The notes below the pieces were generated by a model. The model worked only from the letters and a program-made list of their open reading frames with translations. It ran no database searches and was not told the origin of the DNA. A program made the translations under genes and the position numbers. From the NCBI RefSeq assembly GCF_016100455.1, contig NZ_JACFSK010000001.1, positions 186,001-250,000 on the forward strand: a stretch of 64,000 bases of DNA, given 5' to 3'. Numbering within the stretch: position 1 is the stretch's first letter; each line of letters starts with the position of its first letter. The DNA comes from Bartonella sp. M0283 (GTDB taxonomy: Bacteria; Pseudomonadota; Alphaproteobacteria; Rhizobiales; Rhizobiaceae). Below are positions 19,432 through 42,603 of this stretch, one piece after another.

Positions 19432-20757
19432 TTATCCTGCCATCCATGACGTATTAAAATCATGTCGCGGGAAATTGCGCTGCCGGTTATTAAGGATTTT
19501 TGGTGCTTCATAGGCAATACACATCAGGCCGAAAGCATCAGCCCCGTGGCTTGCCCAGTCATGTTCCGGCCCCAATCCTATATCGCGTTTGTCGTCACGT
19601 TTTTCGTGATACCAGCCCAAAGCATCGCGTCCTGCTTCGGTGGTTTTTTCATTAAACCAGATAGAGGAAAAAAGCCGTCTTGCCGCTTCAATTCGGGCGC
19701 GTGCTGCACCTTTTCCCTGATTGGGAATAATGTCCACCTCGAAACCGGCTTCTTGAAGTGCACTTTCAAAACTCACATCCCGCACGCGATCTTTGGTTGC
19801 ACCATCATGCGGCAATGTAATTTTTGCCCGCCCGTAACCTTTTTCACGCAGCCAGTTGATATGGGCGCTCAAAGGCTGCCCTTGCGCTTCATAATAATCA
19901 AGAACGCGGATTTCTTTTCCAATAAATTGCGCAATCCAGATAGCGGTTGCATCGGCTTTGGCGCCGGTGCCGCCAATGTCGAAAAAAGCTTGAAACGTCA
20001 TTAGCGGGTCGGCCGGAACATTGGAAATGCGCCCTTCTTCTTTGGCAATTGCAAGACCGGTTGCAAAATAGGCTCCCTCCATCTGGGAAAGAAATCCCCC
20101 CTCCCATATATGGTCATAACTTTCCGGCCGGTTCTTCAAATCATCAAGGCGGGCGCGGTTTAATAGATCGGGAAATCTCGGATTATCACGCCAATTCAGT
20201 TGAACAGATTTGATACGCGCATTTTTACTGTTGCGAAAACGCTTTTCAACGGCTGCCTCTTTTCTGAGCGGGTTCCATGTTACCCAGAGTTCGGTGTTCC
20301 AATCCTCACCTTCCTCGCGCAAAGTCGGTATCAATGTGTTCCATGCGTGGGAGGTCACAGGTTCGGCTTCATCCACCCAACAAAGAAGCAACCGCCCCTT
20401 CGATTTGATACTGGCAATATTCCGGTCAAGTCCGGAAAAGGCATAAGTAATGCGCCCGTCTTTCGAGCGTATATAGGTTTCACCAATGGTATAGTAATTT
20501 TGCAAAAACGGATAATCGGCAATGGCTCTTTTGATTTCCTCCAGTGAGCTGTCAGCCAAAGAATTCTGGAATTGGCGGGCACAAAGAATAATGCCGCGAA
20601 TTCCTCTTTTTCCCAAACAATAGCCGACCACTGCGCTCATTGTGGCAAAGGAACGGGTTTTTCCCGAACCGCGCCCGCCATAAGCCGCCCTGATATCGGC
20701 AGGCCCATCGAAAAGGCTAATCAGCTTTTCCGGCAATTCTATTTTTTCTGTTGTCAT
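19432..20757 (-). CDS. Terminase large subunit
   Basis: Packaging ATPase and nuclease. I start it at ATG 20757 (MTTEKIELPEKLISLF), giving 441 residues; the frame is open 39 codons further but that extension is hydrophobic and unlike the family. Walker A is AAYGGRGSGKTRS near residue 30, Walker B with catalytic Glu is LLLCWVDEAEP near 125, and the C-terminal nuclease has FFDIGGTGAKADATAIW near 255 and the late acidic HGADAFGLM. It cuts concatemeric DNA and pumps it through the portal. It lies downstream of the small-terminase-position gene, with a 440-base gap between. Confidence 0.93.
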   Translation of the reverse strand: MTTEKIELPEKLISLFDGPADIRAAYGGRGSGKTRSFATMSAVVGYCLGKRGIRGIILCARQFQNSLADSSLEEIKRAIADYPFLQNYYTIGETYIRSKDGRITYAFSGLDRNIASIKSKGRLLLCWVDEAEPVTSHAWNTLIPTLREEGEDWNTELWVTWNPLRKEAAVEKRFRNSKNARIKSVQLNWRDNPRFPDLLNRARLDDLKNRPESYDHIWEGGFLSQMEGAYFATGLAIAKEEGRISNVPADPLMTFQAFFDIGGTGAKADATAIWIAQFIGKEIRVLDYYEAQGQPLSAHINWLREKGYGRAKITLPHDGATKDRVRDVSFESALQEAGFEVDIIPNQGKGAARARIEAARRLFSSIWFNEKTTEAGRDALGWYHEKRDDKRDIGLGPEHDWASHGADAFGLMCIAYEAPKILNNRQRNFPRHDFNTSWMAG

Positions 20758-22984: not shown

Positions 22985-23011
22985 CAGCAACCCGCACAAT
23001 TTCTTTTTCAA

Positions 23012-24321: not shown

Positions 24322-25197
24322 TTATTTATCGTCTTTCGACCTTGTTCGGGAAAGCAAATAAGAAACAAAGGATGCGCAAGCCCCCAACATGAAAAGCGCA
24401 TCGGCCTCGTCAACGGCTGCACTCGACTTGTCCAAAAGTGAATGTCGAATTCCGTTTTCATCAGAGGTAAAGCCATAAAGTTCGCTCAACGCTTTCTTAA
24501 ATGCCGGATGCAGAGGATAGTTCTTTTCAATCTCATTCAACGCCGAGCCGAGAGTGGCATTTTCTCCGACAATTTGGCGGCAAATCGCTTCCACCGCGCT
24601 GATACTTTCCCGAACGCTATCTGCCCACTTCTGGTGATTTATCTGTTCTCCGGCTTTGAGTAAATGGCTATGGGCACCAAGCTGGCCAGTGTCCTTTGTC
24701 TCATCGAGTGCAGCAACATAAGTCTTACCCTCAAATTCATTACTGATAGGCTTGATCTTTCCGTCGTAAATTATGTAGGCTAAGTGATGCTTTTTAACGA
24801 TTGTTTTTAACTTAAATTCAAAATTTTCATTACGTTTTTTATAACCAATATTATCTGTATTTAATTGTTTAAGATCTTTTATTAGTTGTTCTAATAAATC
24901 AAAAAGTCTAAAAAAATTACATTTATCGACAAACTCATCTAGGAAATCTTTCACGAAAGACTTCGTTCTTGAAAACTTTCTATAATTTCCTTCATAAAAG
25001 TTTATATAAATGTCCTGAATTATATCCGCATATTCGTTTTCAATAGCATTAAAACGACCGACTATAATAGTTTCGTCGAGAAGTGCTTTTATCTCTTCTC
25101 TGAATGCGGTTGTTATTTCTCCCAAAGCAAGCTGTTGAACAACCGGCGCATAGCCGTAGCGCTGGGAAAACGGAAGATCGTCAGTAGAATTGCTCAT
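24322..25197 (-). CDS. AbiJ-like abortive infection protein
   Basis: I place the start at ATG 25197, giving 291 residues; the frame is open 54 codons further. The N-terminus has LPFSQRYGYAPVVQQLALGE, matching AbiJ N-terminal domain 4. A charged helical middle follows. The C-terminal part (about 210-290; SVRESISAVEAICRQIVG, LGSALNEIEKNYPLHPAFKK, ENGIRHSLLD, ADALFMLGACASFVSYLL) is the domain shared by AbiJ-type proteins, related to HEPN-type helical domains. Such proteins stop phage growth by disabling the infected cell, often by RNA damage. The gene is divergent from the six-span membrane protein at 25578, with 380 bases between. GC is low relative to phage genes, in keeping with transfer. Confidence 0.8.
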   Translation of the reverse strand: MSNSTDDLPFSQRYGYAPVVQQLALGEITTAFREEIKALLDETIIVGRFNAIENEYADIIQDIYINFYEGNYRKFSRTKSFVKDFLDEFVDKCNFFRLFDLLEQLIKDLKQLNTDNIGYKKRNENFEFKLKTIVKKHHLAYIIYDGKIKPISNEFEGKTYVAALDETKDTGQLGAHSHLLKAGEQINHQKWADSVRESISAVEAICRQIVGENATLGSALNEIEKNYPLHPAFKKALSELYGFTSDENGIRHSLLDKSSAAVDEADALFMLGACASFVSYLLSRTRSKDDK

Positions 25198-25577
25198 AAT
25201 TGAATGGTCATACACTCTTTTGAATAGTGGAAATATAATGTCTTTGGAATGTTCAAGTAATAACAGATTCTGTGGTTCAAAAATAGCTTCGCCTTTTATC
25301 ACTTCACGAAATTGACCGCTTTTTTTGCACTTAAGCGACGTTTTGAATGGAACCAACAATTCCAGCTTTGACCGTGAAAAACTCGTGCCACGAAATAATG
25401 CCGTCGATAGCCGTCAGTTATTCCCTTCGTCATTCTTGATGAACCTTGAAACGATCGATAAGAAAAAACCATCACACAAATAGCGGTTGCAAAAAGGGGA
25501 AAACCACATCCTATCATTGCCTTTGTCTAAGTTTTTGGCATAAATCGCTAGGGTGAGAGAAGGGGAAAAATCTGGAA

Positions 25578-27218
25578 ATGCCTTCAAATACCAATACCGA
25601 TAAAGAGAACGATAAGCTTGAACAAGCAACTGAAGCAGATAAAAAATTCATTGCTTTTAAAAAGCGCATGTTCTGGCTTGGTATCGGCTTTTTAATTGCA
25701 GCAATAGTTCTCTCTCTCCCGAATTATTTTTTTCTTGAAACAGCTAACAATATTCTTGGGGTGGGCATTTTTTTATTCGTTGTTTTGGCAGACATATTCA
25801 TCTTGCTTCCGGCAATCATTACGAAAGAAACAAACTGGTTTGCACTTCTAGGCTCGACTATTTTATGTATTGTTTTCCTCTGTCTATCGTTGTTTTACCC
25901 TTTTCAGCACTTTCAATATAGATTGAAAGTTATTTCCTTGGTTGCGATTGTTGCAACGCTTTTATTTGTGCTTTTGAATAGCTGGATTAATGCAGCTTTT
26001 TTCCCGTCGAAAAATGCCGATATTCGCCAAAGTGTCGATTTTGCCAGCAACCGTTTTGCCGTTGATGTTTTAAACGTCACTTTAATTCTTGGCACTTTGT
26101 TCGGGACAATTGCTTTTCTGTATTTTTATCCGGATAAAGACAATTCAACCTTTTTCGGTGGTATTGATATTAAAAATGTAGCCCTCGCCACGGCCGGTCT
26201 TGTCACCTTTTTCTGGGCTGCCAAAGCGACAAAAAACAAATCAATCGAGCTTGAAGAAAAGAAGCAGGATGGCAAACGCCACGATAATGAAATCGCAATG
26301 GCAAAACAGCGTGATACTGCCCAGCTTATCGCCGAAGCATCGAAACTTCTAAGCAGTGAAAGCGATGCGCAAAAATATGCAGGTCTTTCCTTTTTGAATG
26401 CAGTTGCAAGTGACCCTGAAGGTCCTCTTAGAAAAGAAGCATTTGATTTGATAGCAGATTTTATAACCGGTGCTAGTGACGTCACCACAGCGAATAAAGC
26501 CCGACTACGCGCAATGATTTACGCTGATCAACTTGTCGAAAATAATCCGCGTCATTTTCATATCGACGAATACATAATAGTATCATGTACAGACTGTGAT
26601 GGACCGGATGACGATGTAAATGATTTGAATGAGTTTGAGATTAAAAATTTATACGTTTCATATATTGGATTAACTTTTGATTACGAATTTATCCAGAGAG
26701 TTGTAAAACCAAAATCTATGGATCAATTCGGATTTTTAAACTGCTTTTTTTATGGTGCAAATCCCGAATTTACATTGCCGATAATTGATCAGATTGCTAC
26801 CTTCAATTGCCATTTCCAGAATTGTAAAATCCGATACATCAATTGGTCTCCATACGCGATGACGGAAAATCCTATGACTGGAAAAATCGATGAGGCGCGA
26901 ATTATACCCAAGAGTTACCTTTCGGATGACAATGATAACTACGATACTTTCTCTGAATGCGACTTTAGTGATTGCTTGAACTGGCTATATGTGCGTCGTT
27001 CAGTAGAAAAAAGTGACAGACAAGTTGTATTTGATAAGTGCTTTTATTATCCGGGATGCGAGCCAGGAGGTTTCGAGGAAGACGATGATGGGAAATTGTT
27101 AACGAAAGTTACTTCAGAAAAACAATTTAATGAACTGTTGGATGATCCTTTTTACTTGCAGTATTCCCCACCGAAAAAAAATAAACGCAAAGGGTCGCGT
27201 GCGCATAAAAATAAATGA
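25578..27218 (+). CDS. Six-span membrane protein with pentapeptide-like C-terminal domain
   Basis: A 546-residue protein with six predicted spans (about 28-50, 57-80, 85-106, 115-140, 163-182, 196-213). A charged helix follows (AKQRDTAQLIAEASKLLSSE) with KYAGLSFLNAVASDPEG, which recalls the LGGIYALERIA linker of membrane-bound pentapeptide-repeat proteins. The cytosolic end (about 340-510) has degenerate CDFSDC, CFFYGA and CHFQNCKIRY units like an eroded pentapeptide helix. It ends in a Lys-rich tail. Related architectures occur among defence and toxin genes, but activity is unknown. It is divergent from the AbiJ-like gene; whether the two act together is untested. Confidence 0.7.
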   Translation: MPSNTNTDKENDKLEQATEADKKFIAFKKRMFWLGIGFLIAAIVLSLPNYFFLETANNILGVGIFLFVVLADIFILLPAIITKETNWFALLGSTILCIVFLCLSLFYPFQHFQYRLKVISLVAIVATLLFVLLNSWINAAFFPSKNADIRQSVDFASNRFAVDVLNVTLILGTLFGTIAFLYFYPDKDNSTFFGGIDIKNVALATAGLVTFFWAAKATKNKSIELEEKKQDGKRHDNEIAMAKQRDTAQLIAEASKLLSSESDAQKYAGLSFLNAVASDPEGPLRKEAFDLIADFITGASDVTTANKARLRAMIYADQLVENNPRHFHIDEYIIVSCTDCDGPDDDVNDLNEFEIKNLYVSYIGLTFDYEFIQRVVKPKSMDQFGFLNCFFYGANPEFTLPIIDQIATFNCHFQNCKIRYINWSPYAMTENPMTGKIDEARIIPKSYLSDDNDNYDTFSECDFSDCLNWLYVRRSVEKSDRQVVFDKCFYYPGCEPGGFEEDDDGKLLTKVTSEKQFNELLDDPFYLQYSPPKKNKRKGSRAHKNK

Positions 27219-27805
27219 TTTTTCATCAAAGTTTAAATCACTGCCACCTCCATCAACCCAAGTCGGACTGTTACCTTGTCTATTCGTTTGGGGTGGAAAG
27301 GTGAGCTATTAATTTGCTTTCTTGTTCGGCGTAAAGAAGGCGAGCGAGGGGCGGTTGATCGCTCTGCGAAGTCGGTAGTCTCAAAGCCGGAATTTGCAGA
27401 GCCGGTATCGGCGAAGATGCTTGTTGCGAAGTTGATGTTCTCAAAGCCGGTATTGGTGAATACGCTCGTCCCTAAGCGGATATTTCCCGAAGCTGAGGTT
27501 TTTGAAGCTTGTGTCAGCGAAACCGCTCATCCCGTCACAGCTCGTTCAAAAAGCGATCGTCTCGAAACCCGTGGCTCGGTAAACGCGAGTTCCAAAACCA
27601 AGTATTCTGAAGCCGGTTTTCGTGAAACCGATAGTCCTGAAAGCAGTAACATCGAAAGACAACCGCACCGTTGGCTTCAACCGCAGCATTCACGCCTAAA
27701 ACCGTTTGTCGATCAGTTTATCGGTGAAGCAAATGACGCGAAAATCAAACCGGTTTCAGTATTGCATCACCGGATTGTTCCGCGAATTTTTTCTCTCTTT
27801 AAAAC
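27219..27805. other. Low-complexity gap with degenerate short repeats
   Basis: About 590 bases with degenerate copies of a CAAAGCCGG/TATTGGTGAA-like motif spaced roughly 27 bases apart (27370-27640). A long forward frame (27276-27962) is open across it but its composition (SVVSKPEFAEPVSAKMLVAK) is repeat-derived and it runs into the convergent glycosyltransferase gene. No gene is supported. Confidence 0.5.
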
Positions 27806-28615
27806 TCAAGGGTTGTATTGGCCGAGGCAAGCTTTGAACAGAATCTTCAAAACTGCAAGATTTCCTTTGAAGTTACTAATTTTTGTCGGCACTTCTCCAA
27901 CAGGGTATTCTCTTCTGGTTGCTATTTCTTTGCATTTATATCCAAGCTTGGGAGCGCGATAGGATAAATAGGCTAGAAGCTCATATGTCATGAATATATC
28001 GCGAAAGGGGGCAACCTTCGGGTCAAGCAGCATTTTGCTGCTGTAAGCTCGGAAGCCCTGTGTGGTATCTGTCCATTTGAAGCCGGAAGCAAGGCTCAAA
28101 CATGGGGCATGGATGTATTTGATAGCAAAGTCTCTCGACTTTGGTGTGTTGATAGCAGTTCCTCCGGTGATAAAGCGGGAAGCCTGCACGAAATCGGTAC
28201 CGTCTTCAAGCTCCTTGATAAATCGCGGTATTGCTTCAGGGTCGTCCTTGTTATTGCCATCAATTGTAATAATGCCTTCGTACCCCTGTTCAAGTGCGAA
28301 AGCATAAGCGCATCTAAGCTGCGCACTCAATTTGCCGGGGCCGGTTTTAACAAGAAGGCCGCTCACATTCATTTCTTTAAGAAAGTCCGGTTCGAGCGAG
28401 CCATCCGTGCTGCCACCATCTATAATAATAATATCGGCCATATCGGAAATATTGTGCGATTTCATGCGGGCAAGAAGGTTCTTTATACGCGCTCCCTCGT
28501 TGATGACGGGGATGACCACGCAATAGGGATGATGTCTTGAAGACCATAAGGCGACCTTCATTGAAGGCACTTGCCAATCTTTATTGTTCACTGTGACTGA
28601 TTGCGGATTATTCAT
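27806..28615 (-). CDS. Soluble family 2 glycosyltransferase
   Basis: With ATG 28615 the product has 269 residues; an upstream extension of 25 codons would overlap the preceding gene. It has the GT-A fold motifs YCVVIPVINEGARIKNLL, IIIDGGSTDGS and IITIDGNNKDDPEAI, the last carrying the metal-binding acidic residues, then TQGFRAYSSKML and RDIFMTYELLAYLSYRAPKL. No membrane span is visible, unlike the other transferase at the head of this operon. DPM1-like proteins have this layout, so a polyprenyl phosphate is a plausible acceptor. It is the last of six leftward genes. The substrate is unknown. Confidence 0.82.
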   Translation of the reverse strand: MNNPQSVTVNNKDWQVPSMKVALWSSRHHPYCVVIPVINEGARIKNLLARMKSHNISDMADIIIIDGGSTDGSLEPDFLKEMNVSGLLVKTGPGKLSAQLRCAYAFALEQGYEGIITIDGNNKDDPEAIPRFIKELEDGTDFVQASRFITGGTAINTPKSRDFAIKYIHAPCLSLASGFKWTDTTQGFRAYSSKMLLDPKVAPFRDIFMTYELLAYLSYRAPKLGYKCKEIATRREYPVGEVPTKISNFKGNLAVLKILFKACLGQYNP

Positions 28616-28620
28616 TTGTT

Positions 28621-28977
28621 TTATGAAACCTTGATCGTGATAAGAGCGACACCTGCTATGACGAGTAATATTCCGAGAATTGTCGTCCAATAAAACGTTT
28701 CACGGAATATCAGAAAAGAACATAGAGCAACCGCAGCAATAGCACCGGATGTCAAAATCGGATGCGCAACATTGAGCGGAAATTTTGCAAGTGCCGCTGC
28801 ATAAAGCAAAAATGCACCGCCATAAAGAGCCAATCCGAGCCAGAACGGCCAATTTGTCAATGCACCTGACGGGTCGCTCAGGGAAGGAAATTTTCTGGGG
28901 GGCATCATAGCAATTTTGACCAGAACACTTGCCGAAGCATTGCACATAATCCCCAAAATCAGGATAGCCCACCTCAT
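28621..28977 (-). CDS. SMR/EmrE-like four-span transporter (ArnE/F type)
   Basis: A 118-residue protein with four spans (about 2-22, 45-66, 72-92, 96-116) in the small multidrug resistance pattern. In this family ArnE and ArnF together flip undecaprenyl-phosphate-aminoarabinose, and others export cations. Among glycosyltransferases and sugar enzymes a flippase for a lipid-linked sugar fits better than a drug pump. The conserved membrane Glu of EmrE (Glu-14) is absent from the first span here, where ILILGIMCNASASVLVKIAM is read, which also argues against proton-coupled drug efflux. It overlaps the upstream isomerase gene by four bases. Confidence 0.75.
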   Translation of the reverse strand: MRWAILILGIMCNASASVLVKIAMMPPRKFPSLSDPSGALTNWPFWLGLALYGGAFLLYAAALAKFPLNVAHPILTSGAIAAVALCSFLIFRETFYWTTILGILLVIAGVALITIKVS

Positions 28978-29807
28978 TGTCCAACTCCCGAATGTGGCCG
29001 ATAGGAACGGATTGCATTGGATAATGCGTGCTCGATCGACGCCAAATGGGGCGCATTTTTGGTTGCGACCATTTCAATCGTCACAACATGATCGGGCAAA
29101 TAGCGAATAAGCGCATCATGAACGCGACGATGATCGACACCACCATCCCCCAAAGGAACGAGATCCGGCTCACTTGCGTGAATATGTTTTATAATGTCGG
29201 AATATTGCTTCAAAACGGCTTCGGGATCTTCCCCGTTGATTTGAAGTGCACCGGTGTCGAATTGCATTCCGATGGCATTGTGGTTGACCAATCTCACAAT
29301 GGCCGCCGTGTCGGCACTATTTGTCATAAAATTGGCACCATAGCGCGGCGGGTTGGGTTCAAGACAAATGACAACACTATTCTTTTCGGCTATTTCACCA
29401 AGCCGGTAAAAAAATTCTGTTGCCTGCTTTTTGACCTCGTCATCATCAAGCCCGTTCCGGTCGCGGTTTTTGGGCGAACCGAACACTAATCGCGTTGCCT
29501 GAAGCCCATTTGCAATATTGCAGATCGCTTGCAGGTGGTCGAGCATTTCGTCTTTGATTGCATTGTCACCAAAAACATTGAGTCCCTGTGTGCCGAATAA
29601 CAAGGATTGCATTCCGGTGATCTCGATTCCCTGATCCGCCCACCAGTTTTTCACACGCAAAATATCTGTGTCTTTGGTCTCTCGCGGATTTTTAAAATAT
29701 TTTGCCGGTGCAATGTCGATGGCATCAACAGCGTATTTTTGTAAAAGTCGGGCGACTGCTGCATCTTCCTCGCTATCCCATGCAATATTCGATATGGAAA
29801 GCCTCAT
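28974..29807 (-). CDS. Sugar phosphate isomerase/epimerase-like TIM-barrel protein
   Basis: A 277-residue protein of the xylose-isomerase-like (AP endonuclease 2) barrel family. Typical pieces are the N-terminal MRLSISNIAWDSEED, AIDIAPAKYF, TRLVFGSPKNRDR, VVICLEPNPPRYGANFMTN (metal-binding Glu), GMQFDTGALQ (Asp), IKHIHASEPDLVPLG (His), and VVTIEMVA (Glu). These residues would hold the divalent metal. The family interconverts or dehydrates sugars and inositols, and specificity varies. The gene sits between the NAD-dependent epimerase-like and SMR genes with single- to four-base overlaps, so all belong to one operon. Confidence 0.82.
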   Translation of the reverse strand: MRLSISNIAWDSEEDAAVARLLQKYAVDAIDIAPAKYFKNPRETKDTDILRVKNWWADQGIEITGMQSLLFGTQGLNVFGDNAIKDEMLDHLQAICNIANGLQATRLVFGSPKNRDRNGLDDDEVKKQATEFFYRLGEIAEKNSVVICLEPNPPRYGANFMTNSADTAAIVRLVNHNAIGMQFDTGALQINGEDPEAVLKQYSDIIKHIHASEPDLVPLGDGGVDHRRVHDALIRYLPDHVVTIEMVATKNAPHLASIEHALSNAIRSYRPHSGVGQ

Positions 29808-30598
29808 TATTTGCCACCGTTTTCTTTTTCCAATTTTAAAGGTTCGCTCTGGGCGTAACTGCGAATTGCCTCTACAGTTTCCCTTACGCTATATTGATAA
29901 TTGCCGGAAGAGCCGAATAATGGCGCATATTTTGTGCGCATATCATATAAAACAGGCTCTTTTGCAAGCGTGTTGGTGAAGGCTTTTCCGAACCCCAGTA
30001 ACGATACATCACTCACGGAAATTGGTGCGCTTGTGAGGTGAACAAGGGAGAGTTTTTCTTCAAGTGCCACCTCTATATCATACCAGAGATTGACCATCGG
30101 ATAGAATTGGAAAACCGAGCGGCTTTCAATAGCGTCGAGGTTATTATTGTTGAGAAAATCGAAAATGATATTTTTTCGTAAACCCGGCCCGACAAGCCCC
30201 GGCAAACGGACAATGAGCTTGTTTTCAAATGTTTTGTCGACAAATTTTTCAAGCAGTCTGCGATGAAGCCCGTAAGCGTGTAAACCGGTCTCGTCAATGG
30301 CGGTTTCTTCATCCACATTGACGGGCTGTTTGAAAACGTCAACCGTGCTCACCAGTATAAACTGTTTACATTTGACCGTTTCAAGATGGCCGATAAGCCC
30401 GTTTATCTTTTTCAAATCCTCTTCAGGATTTTTGTTTGCGATCCACTTTTGCGCCGGTGCTCCGGCACAGACAATAGTGTCGAATTCCTTATTGTCGATT
30501 TCCTGAATATTGGTAGAACGATAGAAATCCGAAAAACGGGTTTGCTTGACAAGTGTGCTACCGACGAAACCGGAAAATCCGATCAATGCTTTTTTCAT
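29807..30598 (-). CDS. NAD(P)-dependent epimerase/reductase-like protein
   Basis: A 263-residue extended short-chain dehydrogenase-like protein. The N-terminus has the Rossmann motif GFSGFVGSTL, followed by DTIVCAGAPAQKW, then FILVSTVDVFKQP with the Ser/Thr position, and HAYGLHRRLLEKFV. In the last, the usual Tyr-x-x-x-Lys pair reads Tyr-x-x-x-Arg, so catalysis may be altered. The RLPGLVGPGLRKNIIFDFL segment fits the substrate domain. It probably modifies a nucleotide-linked sugar. It begins nine bases after the FAD protein gene and touches the start of the isomerase gene. Confidence 0.8.
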   Translation of the reverse strand: MKKALIGFSGFVGSTLVKQTRFSDFYRSTNIQEIDNKEFDTIVCAGAPAQKWIANKNPEEDLKKINGLIGHLETVKCKQFILVSTVDVFKQPVNVDEETAIDETGLHAYGLHRRLLEKFVDKTFENKLIVRLPGLVGPGLRKNIIFDFLNNNNLDAIESRSVFQFYPMVNLWYDIEVALEEKLSLVHLTSAPISVSDVSLLGFGKAFTNTLAKEPVLYDMRTKYAPLFGSSGNYQYSVRETVEAIRSYAQSEPLKLEKENGGK

Positions 30599-30606
30599 AA
30601 CTCAAC

Positions 30607-31743
30607 CTATAAATTGCTAAAGTCTTCTGTTTCCAGTTTTTCAAGGACATCATATATATTATCTATTTTGCCGCCAAGAATTGAATAAAATCCTTTGAGT
30701 TTATTATTTTTCTCGAAAAGAATGGGGCGGCCGTCATCGGTGTCGTTTTTGATAAGGATGGTTTTGACCTCGAAGAGTGAATCCACATATTTTGCATCCC
30801 TTACCGCCGGAATATAACGTGCGGCATCTCTTATCATCCGGTCAACCTGTGTGGCCTTATCATACCGGGCAAGAATTTTATAAGGGTTTGTGCCTTGTTT
30901 ATCGAGCCAGTCGAAATGCGGTGTATATCTGACATGTGACAATGTATGAAGCCCGCGCGCAGGGAAAGGCATAATCGAAAAAAATGGCCCGTCCATCACT
31001 GTAATTCCGAGATTTTCCAGTTCATCGGGCAATTCGATGAGAGCCATTTCGGTCACTTCATGTTTCAATCCGGTTTCTGTTCCGGTGAAGTCGCCGGTAA
31101 GCTGGTTCAACCCGCTATAGGTACAATTGAAAATATAGCGGCTGGTGATGACGCTTGCCGGTTGGTCAGCCTGTTTTACGGTAAGAACCAGTCTGTTATC
31201 GTGATCGTCGCGCGCAACACTCAGCGCTTCTGTCGAATAATAGACTTCAACACCCTGCCACTTAAGCTCTTCCACTGCCCATTCGGCAAGTTTCGTGGCA
31301 TCGAAAGCATATTCATGAACGAGGAAGGAATCTTCAACAAGTTGCGGGTTGAATAATTTTTTTACATCGGCCGGAGCGGGTGCAATATAAGCACCAATCT
31401 TGTCACAAAACCGTTCAAATTGTCTGGCTGTCACTTTAGAATTGTTTTTCGCAATCGCATAGATTTTTGTGAAATCCTGTTTCACCGCTTGCGGCCAATC
31501 TTTAATAAAGCGGGGAAGGTTACAACGACTGCGAAACGCGGTGGTGAAACTTCTTGGATAGTGATAACCGTTATGAACGCGCGCTTGATTGTTGTAGGAA
31601 GCGCGGGTTAACAGCTTTTTTTCTTTTTCAACCAGAACAACTTTTTTCAAACCGCGATTTTTGGCAAGATAAATCGCAATGGATGCGCCGTAAAAGCCAC
31701 CGCCAATGACAACTGCATCGGCCTTCATTTTATCTGCGATCAT
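30607..31743 (-). CDS. FAD-dependent oxidoreductase (DAO family)
   Basis: A 378-residue flavoprotein. The dinucleotide-binding motif VVIGGGFYGASIAIYLAKN is at about 11-29, and an acidic residue closes the fold at VVLVEKEKKLL. RASYNNQARVHNGYHYPRS follows, resembling the FAD and substrate region of D-amino acid oxidase-like enzymes, and the C-terminal GGKIDNIYDV restores the FAD-binding end. Such enzymes oxidise amines or hydroxyl groups. In this operon a sugar or amino-sugar intermediate is plausible. The ATG overlaps the upstream transferase stop by four bases, indicating coupling. Confidence 0.85.
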   Translation of the reverse strand: MIADKMKADAVVIGGGFYGASIAIYLAKNRGLKKVVLVEKEKKLLTRASYNNQARVHNGYHYPRSFTTAFRSRCNLPRFIKDWPQAVKQDFTKIYAIAKNNSKVTARQFERFCDKIGAYIAPAPADVKKLFNPQLVEDSFLVHEYAFDATKLAEWAVEELKWQGVEVYYSTEALSVARDDHDNRLVLTVKQADQPASVITSRYIFNCTYSGLNQLTGDFTGTETGLKHEVTEMALIELPDELENLGITVMDGPFFSIMPFPARGLHTLSHVRYTPHFDWLDKQGTNPYKILARYDKATQVDRMIRDAARYIPAVRDAKYVDSLFEVKTILIKNDTDDGRPILFEKNNKLKGFYSILGGKIDNIYDVLEKLETEDFSNL

Positions 31744-32870
31744 TGGGATGCCTTGCTTTTCTTGTTACCCGCTTTGGCAATCACGGTTTTCTTGTCGCTG
31801 CCCTTATTGCTGCTGACCTTGTCGGAAGCGGCTTTCTTTTCACTCGCTTTGGTAGATACCGTATTTTTGTTGCTATCGGCATCGGTAGATAATGTCACAT
31901 CTTCAATATTGAGCTTTTCGTTGCGTGTCATGCGCATGCTCGTAAATTCCTGACCGACATGATAGAGCGGGCCGGTATTGCTCAAACTCGATATATAAAG
32001 AATATATTCGCCCAAGACACAAAGAACGAGCGACAAAAGCAGAAACATACCGGATTGTTGAAGCGACATACTGACCCAGCCCGGAGCCACATTGTTTTTA
32101 AACAAAGCAATAACAATGATGTAGATCGAATAGACAAGGTTCGCCAAAGCGCCGAACAAAGACAAAAAGGTAACAAGCCTCATCGGTGCCTGAGTTGTTG
32201 ATACGAGCAGACGTATTCCCTTTACGACATCATCGCCCAATTGTTTTTTGGGGTTGGTCAAAGGCGTGAAACTGTATTTCAGATTGGCACGGGAAAATCC
32301 GCCACTGATCGGCAAATATCGATAGGTAACGACAGGCTGCGGATATTGGAGAATAAAATTGACAACGCGTTTGCTCAATAAACGGTATTGGGGTGTTTCT
32401 TTTGCCAGTTGGATACCGTTAAAGAATTTATATAATGCATCGAATGTTGCATAGGCGATGTGATAGGGAACGCTCTGCTTCGGCTTTTCCTGATTATCGG
32501 CAAAAACAACATCTGCTCCCGTTACCGCTTTTTCCAGCATTTGCGGCAGGAAATTGATATCATCAAGTTGCGGATCAATAACAAGCATGAAATCGCCAAG
32601 GGCATTTTCAAGCCCCACCCAGGCGGCAGTATCTCTGTCCACCTTTTTCGTAAGCGCATAAACTTGCACATTCGGGTAGCCGGCTTTGCCGGTCAGCCGC
32701 TTCAGCTCTGTTATGCTTTCATCCGTCGATGCATTATCGACGATGATGATTTCATAGTCGGAAACAAGTGGCGCTAACACTGTCGAGGCTGATTTTACAA
32801 TCGATTCCAGTTGTTCCACCTGATTGCGGACAACATATATAGCAGATAAAAATACCGGATAAGATGCCAT
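31740..32870 (-). CDS. Family 2 glycosyltransferase with two membrane spans and charged tail
   Basis: The family start is ATG 32870 (MASYPVFLSAIYVVRNQ), giving 376 residues; 80 more codons are open upstream but unlike the family. Motifs are IIIVDNASTDES and FMLVIDPQLDD, then the acceptor-side LPISGGFSRANLKYSF. Two spans lie at about 235-262 and 275-300. A Lys-, Ser- and Asp-rich tail of about 60 residues ends the protein (KAASDKVSSNKGSDKKT) and is not part of the family, adding to the repeat-like tails seen elsewhere in this genome. By analogy with ArnC and GtrB it loads a sugar on polyprenyl phosphate. It heads the six-gene operon. Confidence 0.83.
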   Translation of the reverse strand: MASYPVFLSAIYVVRNQVEQLESIVKSASTVLAPLVSDYEIIIVDNASTDESITELKRLTGKAGYPNVQVYALTKKVDRDTAAWVGLENALGDFMLVIDPQLDDINFLPQMLEKAVTGADVVFADNQEKPKQSVPYHIAYATFDALYKFFNGIQLAKETPQYRLLSKRVVNFILQYPQPVVTYRYLPISGGFSRANLKYSFTPLTNPKKQLGDDVVKGIRLLVSTTQAPMRLVTFLSLFGALANLVYSIYIIVIALFKNNVAPGWVSMSLQQSGMFLLLSLVLCVLGEYILYISSLSNTGPLYHVGQEFTSMRMTRNEKLNIEDVTLSTDADSNKNTVSTKASEKKAASDKVSSNKGSDKKTVIAKAGNKKSKASQ

Positions 32871-33370
32871 TTTACTTGATCGAATTAAAACAATTCCCTG
32901 ACTATTAAGAGATAAGATATATTTACTTCGATTTCCGGAGTAAATACGCAATGCTGGGTTGTAGTCTATTCCCCTCAATAGATACATAACCGCGGGAGCG
33001 GGTGCAAGCATCAATTTAGGCCTTTTCCCGCATAATCCTTGATGCGTTTTGAAGGGGGGTGTCATTTGCAACCCTTCATTTAAACGCAGACGTTCAATGC
33101 CGCCATTCAAGCTTGCTGTTCAGGCTAGCCATTCATCCCCCGTCATGCACACCGGTCATTTAAAACCACAATGAAAACAACGCACTTTGTGAGGGGCAGA
33201 AACCACACGAAACTGTTTTGAAAAATTTTTCTCATACGTAACGTTCTCTATCGTTCATCGCGTCTCTATCCATTTTCCATCTTTAACGTCAATGAATGTG
33301 AAAAATGGTGCAAGCGATATTTGTTTGTCCTTTCACTCCCGCATGAGAAATGGGGTGGAAGTCCTAAACG

Positions 33371-33396: not shown

Positions 33397-33552
33397 AGAA
33401 ATAGAGTTGGAAGTCGGGATAAAAAGGCGGGTTGGACTTCCGCTTTACGGGGGTGACCTCTTTTATAAATTTACGGGGGTAACCCCTCTCATAAGTTACA
33501 AGCCAAGTTTGCTCTTTCAAGCGATAGTCCTTGCTACAAATAATCTTCTCTA

Positions 33553-33800
33553 AAAAATAGTCTTTCCTGCCGCATAACAAATTGCAACAAATCAATAAAA
33601 TTTCGGTCGCAATATAAATTTCCCGCCACTCAGAGAAAATCCGTTTTTGAAAATAGAATTCCCGTTGCGCCATTAGGGTCATTAAAAATTTAATGACCTT
33701 TATTAGCAAGGAAAAAATGCCGGTTTAGCGCATTAAGCACGAGCCTTGTTGCGCCGACAAGGTGCGGCAATTCGAGATATTCCTGCACAATATATTGCAA
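33553..33800. repeat. Direct repeat copy A (about 246 bp)
   Basis: Near-copy of 36415-36660 in the same orientation; by eye nearly nine in ten bases agree. On the minus strand it keeps the last 36 codons of the gene at 36550 in frame through its TAA (ELPHLVGATRLVLNALNRHF, then FLANKGH), with mostly synonymous changes, then the same hairpin (33677-33698, GGTCATTAAA/TTTAATGACC) and downstream sequence. Confidence 0.92.
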
Positions 33801-34166
33801 AGCATATATCATATAGGCAAACTTTTTTAATTGTGTTCAACCAGTTGTTAATTCAGCGTGGTCCTGATATTTGCACAATCAACGGAAAGGCAACTCTGTG
33901 TACTATTACTTTTGTGTGTGGGGGAGGAACTTTTGCAAAGTTTTTTGAACGCCTGTTGAGTAAAACAATTAGAAGTGTAGATAAAGCCCAACAATGAAAT
34001 ATCGCAAATTTTTTCGAGGTTTCATTCTTTGGAAAAACCGTTAAGTGGCTAATGTCAGTGTAGTAACCAGAATATTGTGAATTATTATTTCTCAATTTAT
34101 CGGAAAAAATATAACTAACTAATATTATTTATCAAACGTAAAACCAACCTTAAAACATAAGAGATA

Positions 34167-35678
34167 TCAACATATCTTCGATAATTCGTATTCAAACCGC
34201 TTTTTTATTTTTCGTCTTAGGCCACTTATTTGTTTCTGTATTGGTTTTCCGAAATCATCAAATATTTTAGATGCTCGCTTTGCATAAGTGTTAAAAGTCC
34301 AATTATTATAATCACGGTTTTTTTCAAAAAACCGTTCTACGTTACCAAATGATTGATATAAGTTCTCAAAATTGTATATTTTTAATATATCGGGCATCGA
34401 CTTATCACTATAACGTTTTTTTAGTGATAATGCAGTAGCTCGACACCTATAAGTAATTTTCCGATGCAAGTTACTCATCGTTTTATCTCTTATAAAAACG
34501 TTCTTACCGTCAAAACGAAAACCAAGATATTCAAATGGCTTTGTCTTGGAATTTAGTTTATATTTCGTTGACGCTTTATGTACAATTACGCTTTGTACGC
34601 TGCCATGAGATATAAATTCGTGGATAGCTGATTTTTCTTCTTTTATTTCTAACTGAAATTGGTTTTTGATTGTGGAACATATTTCTTTTTCAATTTGCAA
34701 GACGGCGTTATAATCAAAACGCCCGATTATAAGTATGTCGTCAGAATATCGGAAGTATTTTGCTTCGTATTTATTACATAGCTCATGAGCATATTTATCA
34801 AATTCAAATAAGTATAAATTTGCAAGTAAATCAGACATTGGTGCGCCCTGTGGAATACCTACTTCTGTTGTATTTTTTTGTATGAGAGAGGGGGTGCCGT
34901 CATCACCGGCAATTTTTTGTCGAAAATCTTTAACGCTGCATAACTGCCTGGGGATATTGCTGTGCTTCAATAAGTATCCCTCATAAATGATACCTCTACT
35001 ATTTTTTTTATTCCCGTAAAAGCCCAAGCGCTTATAGGCACTTAACAAATCGACGAACGCATATTTTGTAACAGCTTTGAACACATGATAATGATCATTT
35101 GGGAGTTTGTGACGAATTAACGCATCATAATAATCATCAGGTAGCGTATTGACTTGCTTGCCGTCTGAACATTCTTTATTCAGTTCTTGATTTTCTAGTA
35201 ATTCCAGCCAGGCGTTGTAGAGTAATTTATGATTTATATTTTCAAAAAAATTGCTAATGTCTAGGGAAATCGTGAAGCATTTTTTTGAGTCTCTAATGAA
35301 TTTTATTGCGTCATATGCGTAGTCAATATTGCAACATCCTCGATGCGTTTTTTCATTTATTATTCGTCTGTAAGCTAAGACCGATTGTTCTAGATTTACT
35401 TTTTTTAATTTTTCTTCATAAAGAACTGAAAGCATATGCCGATAATATGAAAAAATGCAGCTATCTAAATGTGCAGCATACCGGATAGGGCGCTCCTTTA
35501 TTTTTCCTTTCTCGCCCTTTTTTGAAAAAAGATTTGTGCGTTGATCATATTTTAGAAAAGGAAAGAATGCGTGTTTTGCTACCGCCTCATGATCTCTCAC
35601 GATTTTGTCAATTGTAGCGAGCGAAGGTATCGCATCGAAATGTGGATACTTTTTTATTGACGGCTTCCAGTTTGTCAT
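34167..35678 (-). CDS. Stand-alone reverse transcriptase, probable defence RT
   Basis: RNA-directed DNA polymerase. I start it at ATG 35678 (MTNWKPSIKKYPHFDAIPSL; 503 residues), though a frame with an upstream GGGGGGAAG and ATG 35720 is possible. Polymerase motifs are in order: ERPIRYAAHLDSCIFSYYRH, motif A FTISLDISNFFENINH, motif B GIPQGAPMSDLLANLYLFEF, motif C YFRYSDDILII with the two catalytic Asp, and FEYLGFRFDG after it. It has no maturase, endonuclease or integrase domain, and no group II intron is seen. That places it with the unknown-group or DRT-type antiviral RTs; the subtype cannot be set by eye. It lies in AT-rich DNA between two 246-bp direct repeats. Confidence 0.85.
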   Translation of the reverse strand: MTNWKPSIKKYPHFDAIPSLATIDKIVRDHEAVAKHAFFPFLKYDQRTNLFSKKGEKGKIKERPIRYAAHLDSCIFSYYRHMLSVLYEEKLKKVNLEQSVLAYRRIINEKTHRGCCNIDYAYDAIKFIRDSKKCFTISLDISNFFENINHKLLYNAWLELLENQELNKECSDGKQVNTLPDDYYDALIRHKLPNDHYHVFKAVTKYAFVDLLSAYKRLGFYGNKKNSRGIIYEGYLLKHSNIPRQLCSVKDFRQKIAGDDGTPSLIQKNTTEVGIPQGAPMSDLLANLYLFEFDKYAHELCNKYEAKYFRYSDDILIIGRFDYNAVLQIEKEICSTIKNQFQLEIKEEKSAIHEFISHGSVQSVIVHKASTKYKLNSKTKPFEYLGFRFDGKNVFIRDKTMSNLHRKITYRCRATALSLKKRYSDKSMPDILKIYNFENLYQSFGNVERFFEKNRDYNNWTFNTYAKRASKIFDDFGKPIQKQISGLRRKIKKRFEYELSKIC

Positions 35679-36414
35679 TTGATTTTCGAGGTACGAAAGG
35701 GGGGAAGCTAATGGTTGCATCCAATGTGTACTTCCCCCCAACTGTAAATGCGAGCTCTTGCGAACTCTAAACGACAATCAAATTAAGTCGAATGACTATA
35801 GTTGTGAACGATTTCTTTCAATCATCGCGCAACTTAGCTATTGCATAGCATACCTGCATATCAACCTAGAGGTCCAAATGAACATATTGTTAATATTGCC
35901 GCTATATTCTGCTTATAGCTTAGTTGACAACTATAATAGAAACTCTGAATCCAAAACGATCCAGATCGCTAAGTATATAGATAATATGTGTCAAAAAATC
36001 AAGGATGTTTTTGTCAAAAAGAATATTTTAAATCATTATCGACAATATTATTAATTTTTTTAACGCATAGATATGAACCGTATTAAAAATGAAACAAATT
36101 ATTTAAATATATAGAATTGTATAATAAATTATATTAAAATAAATAACAAAAGTTAGTATGGTAACATTGTTAATTGTATATTTAAAACTCAAATAAAAAA
36201 ATAAATATACGTAAATAATGTTGACAGAATATTGTTCTATTTAATTCTTTTCTACGGTGTTTTTTATATGGTCAGATGTCCTTTTAGACATGCACTTCCT
36301 ATAAATTCAATTTTAATTAGGCGCTGTTTATTGGAGCACATCTTTTTCGTTCTTTCAAAGCAAAAGGCCTCCTGTTAAGCTTCATCTGTCAAGCTAAAAA
36401 TAGACCTCGCTAAC
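35679..36414. other. AT-rich region upstream of the reverse transcriptase
   Basis: About 735 bases, very AT-rich from 36050 to 36230, without a convincing protein gene. A 98-codon forward frame (35758-36054) has no recognised features. Several defence RTs use a structured RNA encoded directly upstream, so this stretch is the place for one. TTGACA at about 36220 could belong to a forward promoter. Confidence 0.5.
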
Positions 36415-36660
36415 AAAATAGTCTTTCCTGCCAAACAACAGAATTGCAACAAAATCATAAAATTCCATTCGCAATATGATTTTCCCGCCACTTAAGAAAA
36501 TCCGGTTAGAAAATAGAATACTTGTTGCGCCATTAGGGTCATTAAAAATTTAATGACCTTTATTGGCAAGGAAAAAATGCCGGTTCAGCGCATTGAGCAC
36601 AAGCCTTGTTGCGCCGACAAGGTGCGGCAATTCGAGATCTTCCAGCACGATATATTGCAA
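36415..36660. repeat. Direct repeat copy B (about 246 bp)
   Basis: Overlaps the 3' end of the phage gene at 36550 and the 135 bases after it. Copy A lies 2.86 kb to the left, in the same orientation, on the other side of the reverse transcriptase. The right boundary is sharp: homology ends after TATATTGCAA at 36660. Confidence 0.92.
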
Positions 36661-37155
36661 GGCGGCATAAAGGTTATCAATTCTGTTATCGAATTGCGCT
36701 TCCTGAATGGCTTCCCTCGCGGCAAGATATTGCTTTTTTGCGCGCTTGCAAAATGCTTCATAAAGTTCGGGATTGGGCGTGCTGTTAAAATCGTCGTAAT
36801 AGGCGGCAGGTGAAAGCAATGCCTTTTTATAATTGTTATCAACCTCGATAAATTTCAGCGCGGCATTGTACTGGTCTTCGCTAATGCCACCGCATTCGGG
36901 ACCGGCCAAAAAAAGCCTGCCGATATAGGTGGAAGCGCGCGGGTCTTTTGCCTGTTTTTCGGAAAGGCCGGTGTGCTTTGCACGCATCAAAATGGCAAGA
37001 CGGTCAATCGCCTCGCGCGGTTTTTTTGCGCGGCTGCGCCTGCCATTCGGTTCGCGCGCAATACCTTCGATACGTGGCCTTCCGCGCCCGCGCTTGAGCC
37101 GGAGTTTTCCCGCTTTTGAACGGGCTTTCAATCTGATAATTTCAACTTCCTGCAT
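36550..37155 (-). CDS. Conserved-type phage protein normally next to small terminase
   Basis: A 201-residue protein. The basic N-terminus (KLRLKRGRGRPRIEGIARE) and RSRAKKPREAIDRLAILMRA look DNA-binding. The middle, DPRASTYIGRLFLAGPECGG followed by EDQYNAALKFIEVDNNYKKA, is a pattern I recall from rhizobial prophages, where such a gene lies just before the small terminase. Here the small-terminase-position gene is 13.5 kb away, showing where cargo was inserted. Its 3' end is copied at 33553. The actual role is unknown; regulation of late genes or packaging are possibilities. Confidence 0.7.
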   Translation of the reverse strand: MQEVEIIRLKARSKAGKLRLKRGRGRPRIEGIAREPNGRRSRAKKPREAIDRLAILMRAKHTGLSEKQAKDPRASTYIGRLFLAGPECGGISEDQYNAALKFIEVDNNYKKALLSPAAYYDDFNSTPNPELYEAFCKRAKKQYLAAREAIQEAQFDNRIDNLYAALQYIVLEDLELPHLVGATRLVLNALNRHFFLANKGH

Positions 37156-40131: not shown

Positions 40132-40167
40132 ATGATTTATGTTTATTATTCTGACATAATGTATGTT

Positions 40168-40911
40168 ATGGACACGATGGGACAAAGATTGCGCGAAGCA
40201 CGGCTGAAAGCGGGCTTTTCATCTGCGACGAAAGCTGCGGATGCAATTGGCGTGAGCCATTCGACCTATCGGGCACACGAAAACGGGCAGAATGATTTTA
40301 GCCCTGAAGACGCGGCAATTTATGGGCGCAAATTCGGCGTAAGCGCATCTTATCTTTTGACAGGTGAGAATGCCGCAAAACACAAGATTGTATCGAGTTT
40401 TGACCCTGATATTCCTGACCGGATTGATAGCGATGTCAAAACACGGTTGCAGTTGAAAGATGGTGAAATTCCCGAAATTGATGTCAAGGCAGGCATGGGC
40501 GCCGGCGGGGAAATTATGATCGTCAACGGTGCCAAGAATGCTGTTCAGATTTCGACAGAAGTCATACGGGATTTTTGGCGTTTGCCGGAAAGCCTCTTGG
40601 CAAAACTCAATGTCGTCGCGTCCAATGTTGCCGTTCTTCCCGCTTATGGGGATAGCATGTCGCCCACCATTCATGATGGCGATGCGGTGTTTATCGACAT
40701 ATCGCACCGCGTTCCGTCACCTCCGGGAATTTATGCGCTGGCTGACGAGCTCGGCGGAGTTATCATCAAACGGCTTGAAATAGTCTCCCGTCCCGGTGCG
40801 GATGAAATCGAGGTCGAGGTCATATCGGATAATCCCCACCATAAACCGCGCATTCTGAATTTGAGCGAAATCACCATTCTTGGCCGCTATATCGGCCGTT
40901 TTACCCGCTAA
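40168..40911 (+). CDS. Phage repressor, HTH plus S24 (LexA-like) domain with intact Ser
   Basis: CI-type repressor of about 247 residues from ATG 40168 (MDTMGQRLREARLKAGF); ATG 40177 and 40132 are alternatives. The Xre helix-turn-helix covers about 5-60 (KAADAIGVSHSTYRAHENGQ). The S24 domain (about 120-247) has the catalytic Ser in PAYGDSMSPTIHDGDAVFID and the Lys in GGVIIKRLEI. This is the only S24 protein in the region with both members of the dyad, so the only one expected to cleave itself with RecA and to release the prophage after DNA damage. Its last ~70 codons are repeated twice downstream. Confidence 0.9.
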   Translation: MDTMGQRLREARLKAGFSSATKAADAIGVSHSTYRAHENGQNDFSPEDAAIYGRKFGVSASYLLTGENAAKHKIVSSFDPDIPDRIDSDVKTRLQLKDGEIPEIDVKAGMGAGGEIMIVNGAKNAVQISTEVIRDFWRLPESLLAKLNVVASNVAVLPAYGDSMSPTIHDGDAVFIDISHRVPSPPGIYALADELGGVIIKRLEIVSRPGADEIEVEVISDNPHHKPRILNLSEITILGRYIGRFTR

Positions 40912-41425
40912 AGCCGGAACATTTTACAAAACATCGGCATATCGGATGTGCCGACATATCACACCGCGTTCCGTCGCCTCCTGGAATTTATGCACTGGCA
41001 GACGAGCTTGATGGGGTTATCATCAAACGGCTGGAAGTTGTTTCCCGTCCCGGTGCGGATGAAATCGAGGTCAAGGTGATATCGGATAATCCCCACCACA
41101 AACCGCGCATTCTGAATTTGAGCGAAATTACTATTCTTGGCCGCTATATCGGTCGTTTTACCCGCTAAAGCCGGAACATTTTACAAAACATTGGCCTATC
41201 GGATGTGCCGACATATAACACCGTGTTCCGTCGCCTCCCGGAATTTATGCACTGGCTGACGAGCTTGGCGGCGTTATCATTAAACGGCTGGAAATTGTCT
41301 CGCGTCCTGGTGCGGATGAAATCGAGGTCGAGGTGATATCGGATAATCCTCACCACAAACCGCGCATTCTGAATTTGAGCGAAATCACCATTCTTGGCCG
41401 CTATATCGGCCGTTTTACCCGCTAA
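40679..41425 (+). repeat. Tandem 257-bp copies of the repressor 3' end
   Basis: Stops at 40909-40911, 41166-41168 and 41423-41425 are exactly 257 bases apart. Each unit has the last ~70 codons of the repressor and a short spacer (AGCCGGAACATTTTACAAAA). Both downstream copies lack a start, yet keep the reading frame, with almost only synonymous changes; the third codes for the same residues as the parent gene. Confidence 0.95.
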
Positions 41426-42603
41426 AAAAATTGACATAAAATAGGTGCCAAAAGCATCGGCATGTCAAATGTTTATGTCTGGTCAAACAGGCCTTATAGC
41501 CGGATAGTCGAGGGAATGTCATCACAACAGGATATCCAAAACCAAAAGTTTTCCTGAACCCGATCGCTTAAAGTCAGCTATTGAAGCAGCCGATTTAATG
41601 GGGCGATAATTGTCGGGACTTCATCTGATGAGGCAGAATTTTTAGCAAGTTGATTTTCTTACACTGCATGTCTTGATGTGAGTTTTAAAGCTACACGATT
41701 ATTTCAAACACACATTGCCGATGGCAGATTTTCTCTGGTCTATTTTTCAATGCCTGATTTTCAATGCCAGATTTTTCAATGCCCGATTTTCCTTCTGTTT
41801 GATTTTTCAGTGTCGGTTTTTCCAACATCGTGTTTCTTGATGCGCTATTTATTGCTGTCGGATTAAGTCAAACAAAAGTCCGCCGGATTTCCTCACGCCG
41901 GATGGAGCTGGTCGGGCGCATAATTTTCCAATGTCCGATTGGTAATTCAATCGTTCGAAGCGAAATAATTTTAAATCCGTATTGCCGGTATCAAACTTGC
42001 TTTTGCTCGATCACGTTATTGAAAACGGGGTGATAAATTATCCTTTGTTATTGGCACCACGCTTTATTTTTATCCCCTGATTTTTTAAACATCGGTTGCT
42101 TTCACGCTCAACTTGTTGGTGTCCGAGCTTCCGTTGCCGGATAAACGGAAGACTTATGTTTAAAGTGCTTTATTCAGTTGACCGCTATATTTCCTTCCCT
42201 CCACGATCTATTCATTTTTAATCAATCGTCCAAGCAACAGAGCCTCTAATAGTTTTTTGTTGTTTTGATTGGCTTGTTGTTCCGCTTGGAAGTCGCATTC
42301 ATTTATAAAATTCCTTATTTCGAGGAGAACTTCGTCGATATTCTTCTTCGCTTCCGGTTAATTAGCCGGTTCAACTTTGATTTTTTACCACAACCATCCG
42401 GTTTTTTAAAACAATATAAAAGTCGAAAGCAAAACCATCAAAACAACCAAGTCTTCATGGTTAAACGATTCGTTTGTTGATGAAGTCCAGTAAACTTTCA
42501 ACACAAAATATGTTGACATTAATCATGTCATTTTTTTACGATTCCCCCGTTAAGCGTGTTGAAGCTTATGGTTTTGTGTCCAAACAGGCGAGGGGTGGGT
42601 GGA
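41169..42603. other. Mostly non-coding part of the immunity region
   Basis: After the repressor 3'-end copies, 1.1 kb holds no supported gene. Degenerate repeats of TTTTTCAATGCC(T/A/C)GATT lie at about 41740-41825. Inverted TTGACAT/ATGTCAA half-sites occur at 41431-41468. Composition is AT-rich throughout. Confidence 0.5.
42514..42530. promoter_or_regulatory. Operator-like inverted repeat TGACAT-N5-ATGTCA
   Basis: Lies about 75 bases before the start of the gene at 42604 and overlaps a TTGACA -35-like hexamer. The half-site recurs at 41431-41468 (wider spacing) and, as TGTCATGACA, at 43490. Confidence 0.5.

Follow-up and report, generated by a model that had tools for sequence, protein, structure and literature searches.

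Layout of the reverse transcriptase locus

We analysed a stretch of 64,000 nucleotides (nt) of the genome of Bartonella sp. M0283 (contig NZ_JACFSK010000001.1, positions 186,001 to 250,000; hereafter the window, whose own numbering is used below), with attention to a prophage gene for a reverse transcriptase (RT) and to the DNA directly upstream of it, which appears to encode a structured non-coding RNA (ncRNA) and a hidden gene of the neo kind. The RT open frame occupies positions 34167-35777 of the minus strand, and its likely start, an ATG at 35678, gives a protein of 503 amino acids (aa) (34167-35678) with the motif C YSDD. An earlier account made from the letters alone (the sequence-only reading) had placed this gene in AT-rich DNA between direct repeats, and we confirm this: the GC content is 0.32-0.36 over the RT segment versus 0.41-0.50 in the intervals on either side, and the copies, of about 250 bp, are 86% alike. 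The right copy (36393-36663, minus strand) is the true 3' end of a phage gene, phrog_15385 (36550-37155, minus strand), with its terminator and flank, and the left copy (33549-33803, minus strand) repeats this gene end, the terminator palindrome and the flank. Between the RT gene and the right copy, the predicted ncRNA and neo features together span about 35694-36002; they are absent from the sequence-only account.

Family and phylogeny of the reverse transcriptase

Judged by profile and fold matches, the RT is of the DRT2 (UG2) type. Its best PADLOC model is Drt2 (PDLC03757, E 6e-121), the next non-Drt2 model being UG17 (E 2.2e-24), with a weaker Drt9 match (E 1.4e-20). DRT2 entries, which derive from Klebsiella (PMC12039810; PMC11100668), rank first in a sequence search of solved structures. 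A structural model built with 15 aligned sequences (pLDDT 84.1) found its best fold match in 9c0i, a DRT2 RT-ncRNA complex (E 4.5e-32, TM 0.69/0.81), followed by DRT9 (E 2.9e-11). The score of 335.8 bits with the NCBIfam Drt2 model lies under NCBI's curated cut-off of 390, which is an annotation threshold and no biological feature. RVT_1 is the sole Pfam domain in the protein, in line with the earlier description of a stand-alone RT with no partner domain; the DRT2 type and the putative structured RNA partner upstream were missed in that description.

A database search returned 880 RT homologs, and among the 120 listed no visible (shortened) name says Drt2. In a tree of 31 RTs, comprising 23 fetched loci, the window and seven listed database proteins (L035, L036, L039, L065, L068 and L071 were left out), 23 proteins including that of the window are separated from the three annotated Drt2 proteins by a branch of length 1.21 (support 100/99). 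By this tree, the window RT is a member of a deep sister clade to the annotated DRT2s. Compared with L080 and L088-L091, which fall on the side of the annotated Drt2s, it is 24-32% identical, and it shares 96% identity with the RT of locus L023, from a second Bartonella genome (G062). No DNA match was found among phages, where five phage records carry distant RT matches; RT identity in plasmid records is at most 39% in the 20 listed of 32, and one distant RT (24%) was found in viral contigs. An insertion of 26 aa at about residues 163-188 is common to the window and L023 proteins and is without counterpart in the 14 other aligned RTs. By eye it resembles an internal repeat (LPDDYYDAL / LPNDHYHVF), and it falls in a low-confidence region of the model.

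A predicted non-coding RNA upstream of the reverse transcriptase

In DRT2 systems, as described in passages of PMC12039810 and PMC11100668, an ncRNA lies just upstream of the RT gene, its middle part is copied into tandem complementary DNA (cDNA), and the cDNA junctions create a promoter and an endless reading frame, neo, antisense to the ncRNA. This prompted a comparison of the sequence upstream of the RT in the window and its relatives. The comparison set consists of 17 sequences, namely the window and 16 alphaproteobacterial relatives. L065, a near copy of L064, was dropped, and L036 (N-terminus unmatched), L037 (no exact TGTCAA) and L038-L041, L071 and L080 (distant or start unclear) stand outside the set. 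The covariation tests used the 11 better aligned of the 17.

Two hairpins on the minus strand covary across these sequences. In the 5' handle (35945-35964, the window's own hairpin being taken from the predicted fold), all 7 pairs changed on both sides and 85.7% of cells are paired; the covariation score is 0.597, the best slid version reaches 0.187 and none of 500 shuffles scored as high. In the tower-like hairpin (35699-35739), 8 of 10 pairs changed on both sides, with a score of 0.658 against 0.242 for the best slid version, and again 0 of 500 shuffles reached it. The RNA of the window folds with a z of -4.5. Its predicted fold contains a second 3' hairpin, which is buttress-like (35752-35767, minus strand); similar hairpins were seen by eye in the alignment and left uncounted. 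A helix that would close the template, formed from the -35 and -10 regions, is longer than in shuffles, with a mean of 5.7 compared with at most 5.41 in 500 shuffles and with 5.06 when strands are combined across species. A putative ncRNA promoter, TTGATT-17-TATATA, was placed from sequence at 35974-36002 (minus strand), and L023 has a similar promoter-like TTGATT-17-TATTTA, read by eye. Rfam gave no match at gathering score within the window. The observed covariation and folding indicate that the AT-rich DNA upstream of the RT encodes a DRT2-type ncRNA with a 5' handle and a 3' tower.

Boxes, spacing and frame of a putative neo gene

In all 17 sequences, TGTCAA (antisense TTGACA) lies near the 5' side and is followed by an antisense -10 box, i.e., the two promoter elements stand in swapped order. 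In the window, box scanning placed the antisense -35 box TTGACA at 35924-35929 and the -10 box TATAGT at 35797-35802 (both plus strand), on either side of a predicted reverse-transcription template of 150 nt (35785-35934, minus strand, edges uncertain by several nt) that corresponds to one permuted neo repeat on the plus strand. The spacer of 17 bp arises only across a concatemer junction, where the putative promoter would read TTGACA-17-TATAGT.

The distances from TTGACA to the -10 box in the 17 sequences (129, 129, 102, 105, 105, 102, 96, 108, 111, 120, 120, 123, 108, 99, 114, 114 and 114) comprise 10 different lengths in the range 96-129, and every one of them is divisible by three. With a 17-bp spacer across the junction, they correspond to repeat lengths of 117-150 nt, the window having 150 nt. 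The chosen -10 box was the top-scoring one in an unconstrained scan for 14 of the 17. In L023, L068 and L033, the box was instead chosen by alignment; their top-scoring boxes lie at 147, 146 and 141, respectively, the second of which is not divisible by three. A longer template for L023, using the box at spacing 147, was rejected since stops come earlier in other members and the 150-nt junction has microhomology.

When repeats are joined with the 17-bp promoter spacer, one antisense frame, in the same register throughout, runs through the concatemer without a stop in 17/17 sequences, and the other two frames contain stops in 17/17. Stops lie just outside the predicted template in several members, e.g., at -11, -14, +127, +130 and +142 relative to TGTCAA. 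The neo frame stays open in 3% of dinucleotide shuffles for the window and in up to 31% for other members. Similarity between the template edges, evaluated over spacers of 8-26, peaks at 17 with a mean identity of 0.353 and a mean longest run of 2.82, the runners-up being 0.331 and 2.29. At the junction, a pair of neighbouring columns match in 15 and 17 of the 17 sequences; the motif common to the edges resembles GTYGA, or in Bartonella reads TTA/CTTAA. For 13 of the 17, the start codon that ranks best in the frame is an ATG with a Shine-Dalgarno match of 4/6 or better and lies 54-81 nt after the -10 box; in the window this predicted start comprises AGAGG and ATG at 35868-35880 (plus strand). 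The predicted repeat protein exceeds the shuffle mean in hydrophobicity at all 18 loci tested (z 0.9-3.3). Taken together, the swapped boxes, the spacing by three, the one shared stop-free frame and the covarying hairpins make it very likely that the locus makes a neo gene, with a repeat of 150 nt, by rolling-circle reverse transcription.

We thus read the element, with a probability of roughly 0.85, as a prophage-borne anti-phage cassette of the DRT2 type that makes a hidden neo gene and sits at a variable cargo site. An ncRNA of about 290 nt would be transcribed directly upstream of the RT, which would bind it via the 5' handle and the 3' tower region. Upon phage infection, the RT would copy the template of about 150 nt repeatedly, jumping from the 5' edge of the template back to its 3' edge. 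Each junction would set TTGACA 17 bp from TATAGT to form a promoter, and the repeats would be joined into a stop-free frame, whose hydrophobic repeat protein (Neo) would arrest the cell before maturation of the invading phage. The cassette would occupy the variable interval between the phrog_15385 gene and the terminase, bracketed by copies of the gene end and terminator that were brought in at joining. At the level of sequence, this reading draws on the RT family, the two covarying hairpins, the swapped boxes, the spacings by three, the shared frame, the empty sites and the other cargo described below; RNA expression, cDNA concatemers, neo transcription, toxicity, phage protection and the recombination route are steps that we infer.

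Duplicated gene end and variable cargo interval

The two direct repeats, offset by about 2860 bp, each comprise the final 36 codons of the phrog_15385 gene with the stop codon, a palindrome resembling a terminator and roughly 140 bp of DNA past it. Similarity between the copies is 92% within the inner 158 bp and 86.2% across 261 aligned columns. The sequence-only reading had held that the 36 codons remain in frame with mainly synonymous changes, and alignment of the copies bears this out, with 5 synonymous and 2 non-synonymous differences in the coding part. The same RT with the same duplication occurs in G062 (L023/L031), where the copies are 94.0% alike with 2 synonymous and no non-synonymous differences. 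The duplication is therefore not an assembly accident of the window's genome, as it is present in both genomes.

Among 71 genomes of the genus, the phage gene is found at 82% identity or more in 9, the window's own included, and the RT in 2, both with the duplication. Six further genomes (G003, G014, G004, G045, G061 and G044) have a single copy of the gene end that is collinear with the window gene on one side and with the left outer flank on the other; going by this collinearity, these loci are empty sites without the RT. G056 likewise has a single gene-end copy and no RT. The interval between the phrog_15385 gene and the terminase varies among these prophages. In the window, where the far boundary is the gene for the terminase large subunit (19435-20757, minus strand; 96% to a relative), it holds an AbiJ_NTD4/PDC-S32 candidate defence gene (24322-25359, minus strand), a gene for a 546-aa protein, a 6-kb sugar cluster and the DRT2 cassette. 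The cargo of G044 is a defence pair of IetA (AAA ATPase) and IetS (subtilase) (L029, 3966-7320), that of G003 is an AbiJ_NTD4/PDC-S32 gene, and G004 carries a protein 75% identical to the G003 one. Comparison of related prophages, with six empty sites, IetAS in G044 and AbiJ-like genes in G003 and G004, thus sustains the earlier proposal of a hotspot, and supports the site as a prophage defence hotspot that holds different defence cargo or none.

How the repeats arose is less clear-cut. The sequence-only reading had proposed exchange between two related phages at a shared gene end in place of target duplication or decay. The part of this that holds is that the similarity of the window copies (86.2%) does not exceed that between single-copy alleles taken from different genomes (86-94%). 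The G062 copies, at 94.0%, are as close as the closest alleles, which possibly reflects conversion between the copies or a younger age, and among the near-identical alleles the left copy of the window has diverged most, with 2 amino-acid changes, so mild decay of this copy is possible. These two points would suit a different origin, in which the repeats are a local duplication that took place at RT insertion and is now decaying, and the site is no recurrent exchange point. Self-comparison revealed no second copy of the gene end in seven loci without the RT, apart from 66 bp elsewhere in locus L030 that weakly match the terminator part (77%), and this led us to reject the duplication as a general trait of the hotspot; it is also what a local duplication would leave, as is the restriction of the RT to 2 of 71 genomes. 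The allele-like difference between the window copies and the several different defence cargos in the interval argue in the other direction, and we regard a local duplication as a tentative explanation, on the unlikely side.

The duplication is consistent with incoming DNA that had its own allele of the gene end and was joined here by a homologous or illegitimate event. The 391 bp directly downstream of the RT are present only in its own genome and G062 among the 71. Entry or exit of the cassette by recombination between the copies is plausible, and the two copies would place a terminator on each side of the cassette as a useful side effect. Another duplicated gene end occurs in the same prophage, where a 257-bp tandem repeat (40695-41426; 2.8 copies, 92% matches) covers the 3' end of an S24 repressor gene (40132-40911).

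Controls and alternative readings of the antisense frame

A Photobacterium Drt2 locus served as the positive control and gave a repeat of 111 with one open frame, 111 being one of the published DRT2 repeat lengths (PMC12039810). The full feature set was found at 0/68 TGTCAA sites in seven related loci and at 1/44 such sites in the window, the latter being the locus described here.

Several observations weigh against the neo reading. The combination of promoter and open frame alone appears at 5/68 background TGTCAA sites, and one further site in the window has a promoter with a 17-bp spacer and an open frame. A permissive scan allowing one mismatch and spacers of 16-18, applied to 11 loci (L037-L041, L071, L080 and the controls L088-L091), was empty in 5 of them (L038, L039, L071, L090 and L091), including the annotated Drt2 L090. 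The 17 sequences share ancestry, and the shuffle probabilities were not multiplied because of this relatedness. The aligned -10 box of L023 is poor (TTAAGT), 4 of the 17 have no clear Shine-Dalgarno with ATG, and for the tower, one of the five covariation measures, the pair-type count, is no better than shuffles (226/500). The window and L023 repeats differ at 24/150 nt, with 17 codons non-synonymous and 2 synonymous, and this comparison gives no sign of purifying selection on the predicted Neo amino-acid sequence. Moreover, all support for the function of the cassette, and for the neo reading as a whole, is computational.

An amino-acid sequence free to vary in this way would be expected if the RT makes repeat cDNA from the ncRNA and the product acts as DNA, as for DRT9 and DRT10, the open antisense frame being a by-product of constraints on the RNA; Tang et al. 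have also suggested alternative mechanisms in divergent DRT2 clades (PMC11100668). Such an origin of the frame nevertheless sits badly with its being open in the same register, with spacing by three and promoter boxes at both edges, in all 17 sequences, with a Shine-Dalgarno and ATG in 13 of them and with the hydrophobicity excess in 18/18 loci, and we consider it improbable. That the plus-strand frame at 35758-36054 (98 aa) is no more than a conventional small gene on the strand opposite the RT leader is very improbable, for although it is open well past the template in the window and L023, other members have stops just outside the predicted template, the promoter boxes stand in the wrong order in the chromosome, and 19/50 codons differ between the window and L023.

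Relation to known systems

The neo reading places the locus close to the DRT2/neo system of Klebsiella pneumoniae as described in passages of PMC12039810 and its preprint PMC11100668. On this reading, both have one RT gene that follows immediately on an ncRNA, whose hairpins include a 5' handle and a tower-like element on the 3' side. In both, too, the two ends of the template carry antisense -35 and -10 boxes, which come to stand 17 bp apart only in the concatemer; the repeat length is divisible by three, the repeat frame is hydrophobic and free of stops, and a helix closes the template. Unlike Klebsiella DRT2, the present RTs form a separate deep clade (support 100/99) with 24-32% identity to loci on the annotated side, and the two Bartonella proteins carry the 26-aa insertion. 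The repeats of this clade are 117-150 nt long, whereas the published ones described there are 111-129 nt, and the likely start lies 54-81 nt after the -10 box, compared with 13 nt in Klebsiella (PMC12039810). The template edges are GTYGA or TTA/CTTAA here, and ACA in the published DRT2 descriptions. ACA occurs at both edges in 0/17 sequences (5' side 1/17, 3' side 5/17), but by the same count the pair occurs in 0/5 loci on the annotated-Drt2 side. The difference in edges is thus unproven, and the lack of ACA is weakened as a marker of the clade.

Taking these points jointly, an alphaproteobacterial sister clade of DRT2, whose members are named as generic RTs where names are visible, probably also builds neo, with an edge match of its own (GTYGA/TTAA and not ACA), longer repeats and a Shine-Dalgarno start in mid-repeat, and in the present prophage the cassette would lie between duplicated gene ends that allow joining to a defence-cargo site. 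We rate this joint reading as moderately likely, and had rated it somewhat higher before the annotated-side control left the ACA difference unproven. The preprint of Tang et al. (PMC11100668) describes Neo annotation as harder in divergent DRT2 clades and leaves open that these work differently. Simple rules, namely spacing by three, a shared open frame and junction microhomology, recover a predicted neo in 17/17 members of the sister clade examined. Hidden genes written by reverse transcription are thereby a principle that can be tested outside the Klebsiella-like group, with concrete predictions for the repeat length (117-150 nt), the junction motif and the start site. We found no paper on DRT2 in Rhizobium, Agrobacterium or the alphaproteobacteria in a literature search whose coverage mostly excluded subscription papers.

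DRT9 and DRT10, as presented in passages of PMC12632851, resemble the present system in having a Class 2 UG RT, an ncRNA template and repetitive cDNA, the last of which is predicted here. They give weaker sequence matches and, for DRT9, a weaker fold match too, and the passages on them in PMC12632851 mention no hidden reading frame, unlike the predicted neo. The location recalls the hotspots of P2/P4 phages and satellites (PMC9122126), where a fixed place in the prophage holds different defence genes. Phage group and site differ from those described there, and the present DRT2 cassette is flanked by copies of the end of a neighbouring gene with its terminator. The locus adds a phage-carried example of the DRT2 type in a hotspot that also holds IetAS and AbiJ-like genes.

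Other genes of the cargo interval

The sugar cluster (27289-33365) shares the phage interval with the RT cassette but is distinct from it, and encodes two GT2 glycosyltransferases, an EamA-like protein, a xylose-isomerase-like protein, a weak epimerase match and a flavin adenine dinucleotide (FAD) oxidoreductase. An end of the prophage at 33.1 kb, with the sugar genes as host DNA, was rejected in view of the terminase at 19.4-20.8 kb and of collinearity with relatives. In loci L025-L028 and L031 the sides of the cluster adjoin closely and the cluster is absent; on this comparison it is a second insertion inside the prophage, and it may alter the host surface after lysogeny. The 546-aa protein (25578-27218) belongs to a family of about 500-550 aa that looks membrane-like by eye and recurs as cargo of the interval in the genus; three members were scanned and gave no Pfam or PADLOC match. 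In two relatives, a cargo gene of about 500 aa lies between direct repeats of about 371 bp (L025, 5153-7772, 71%; L031, 931-3569, 77%), which suggests duplication of flanks as a further way in which the cargo grows. Tandem repeats of 132 bp and 460 bp are present in the gene before the terminase (21199-23011), which varies between prophages.

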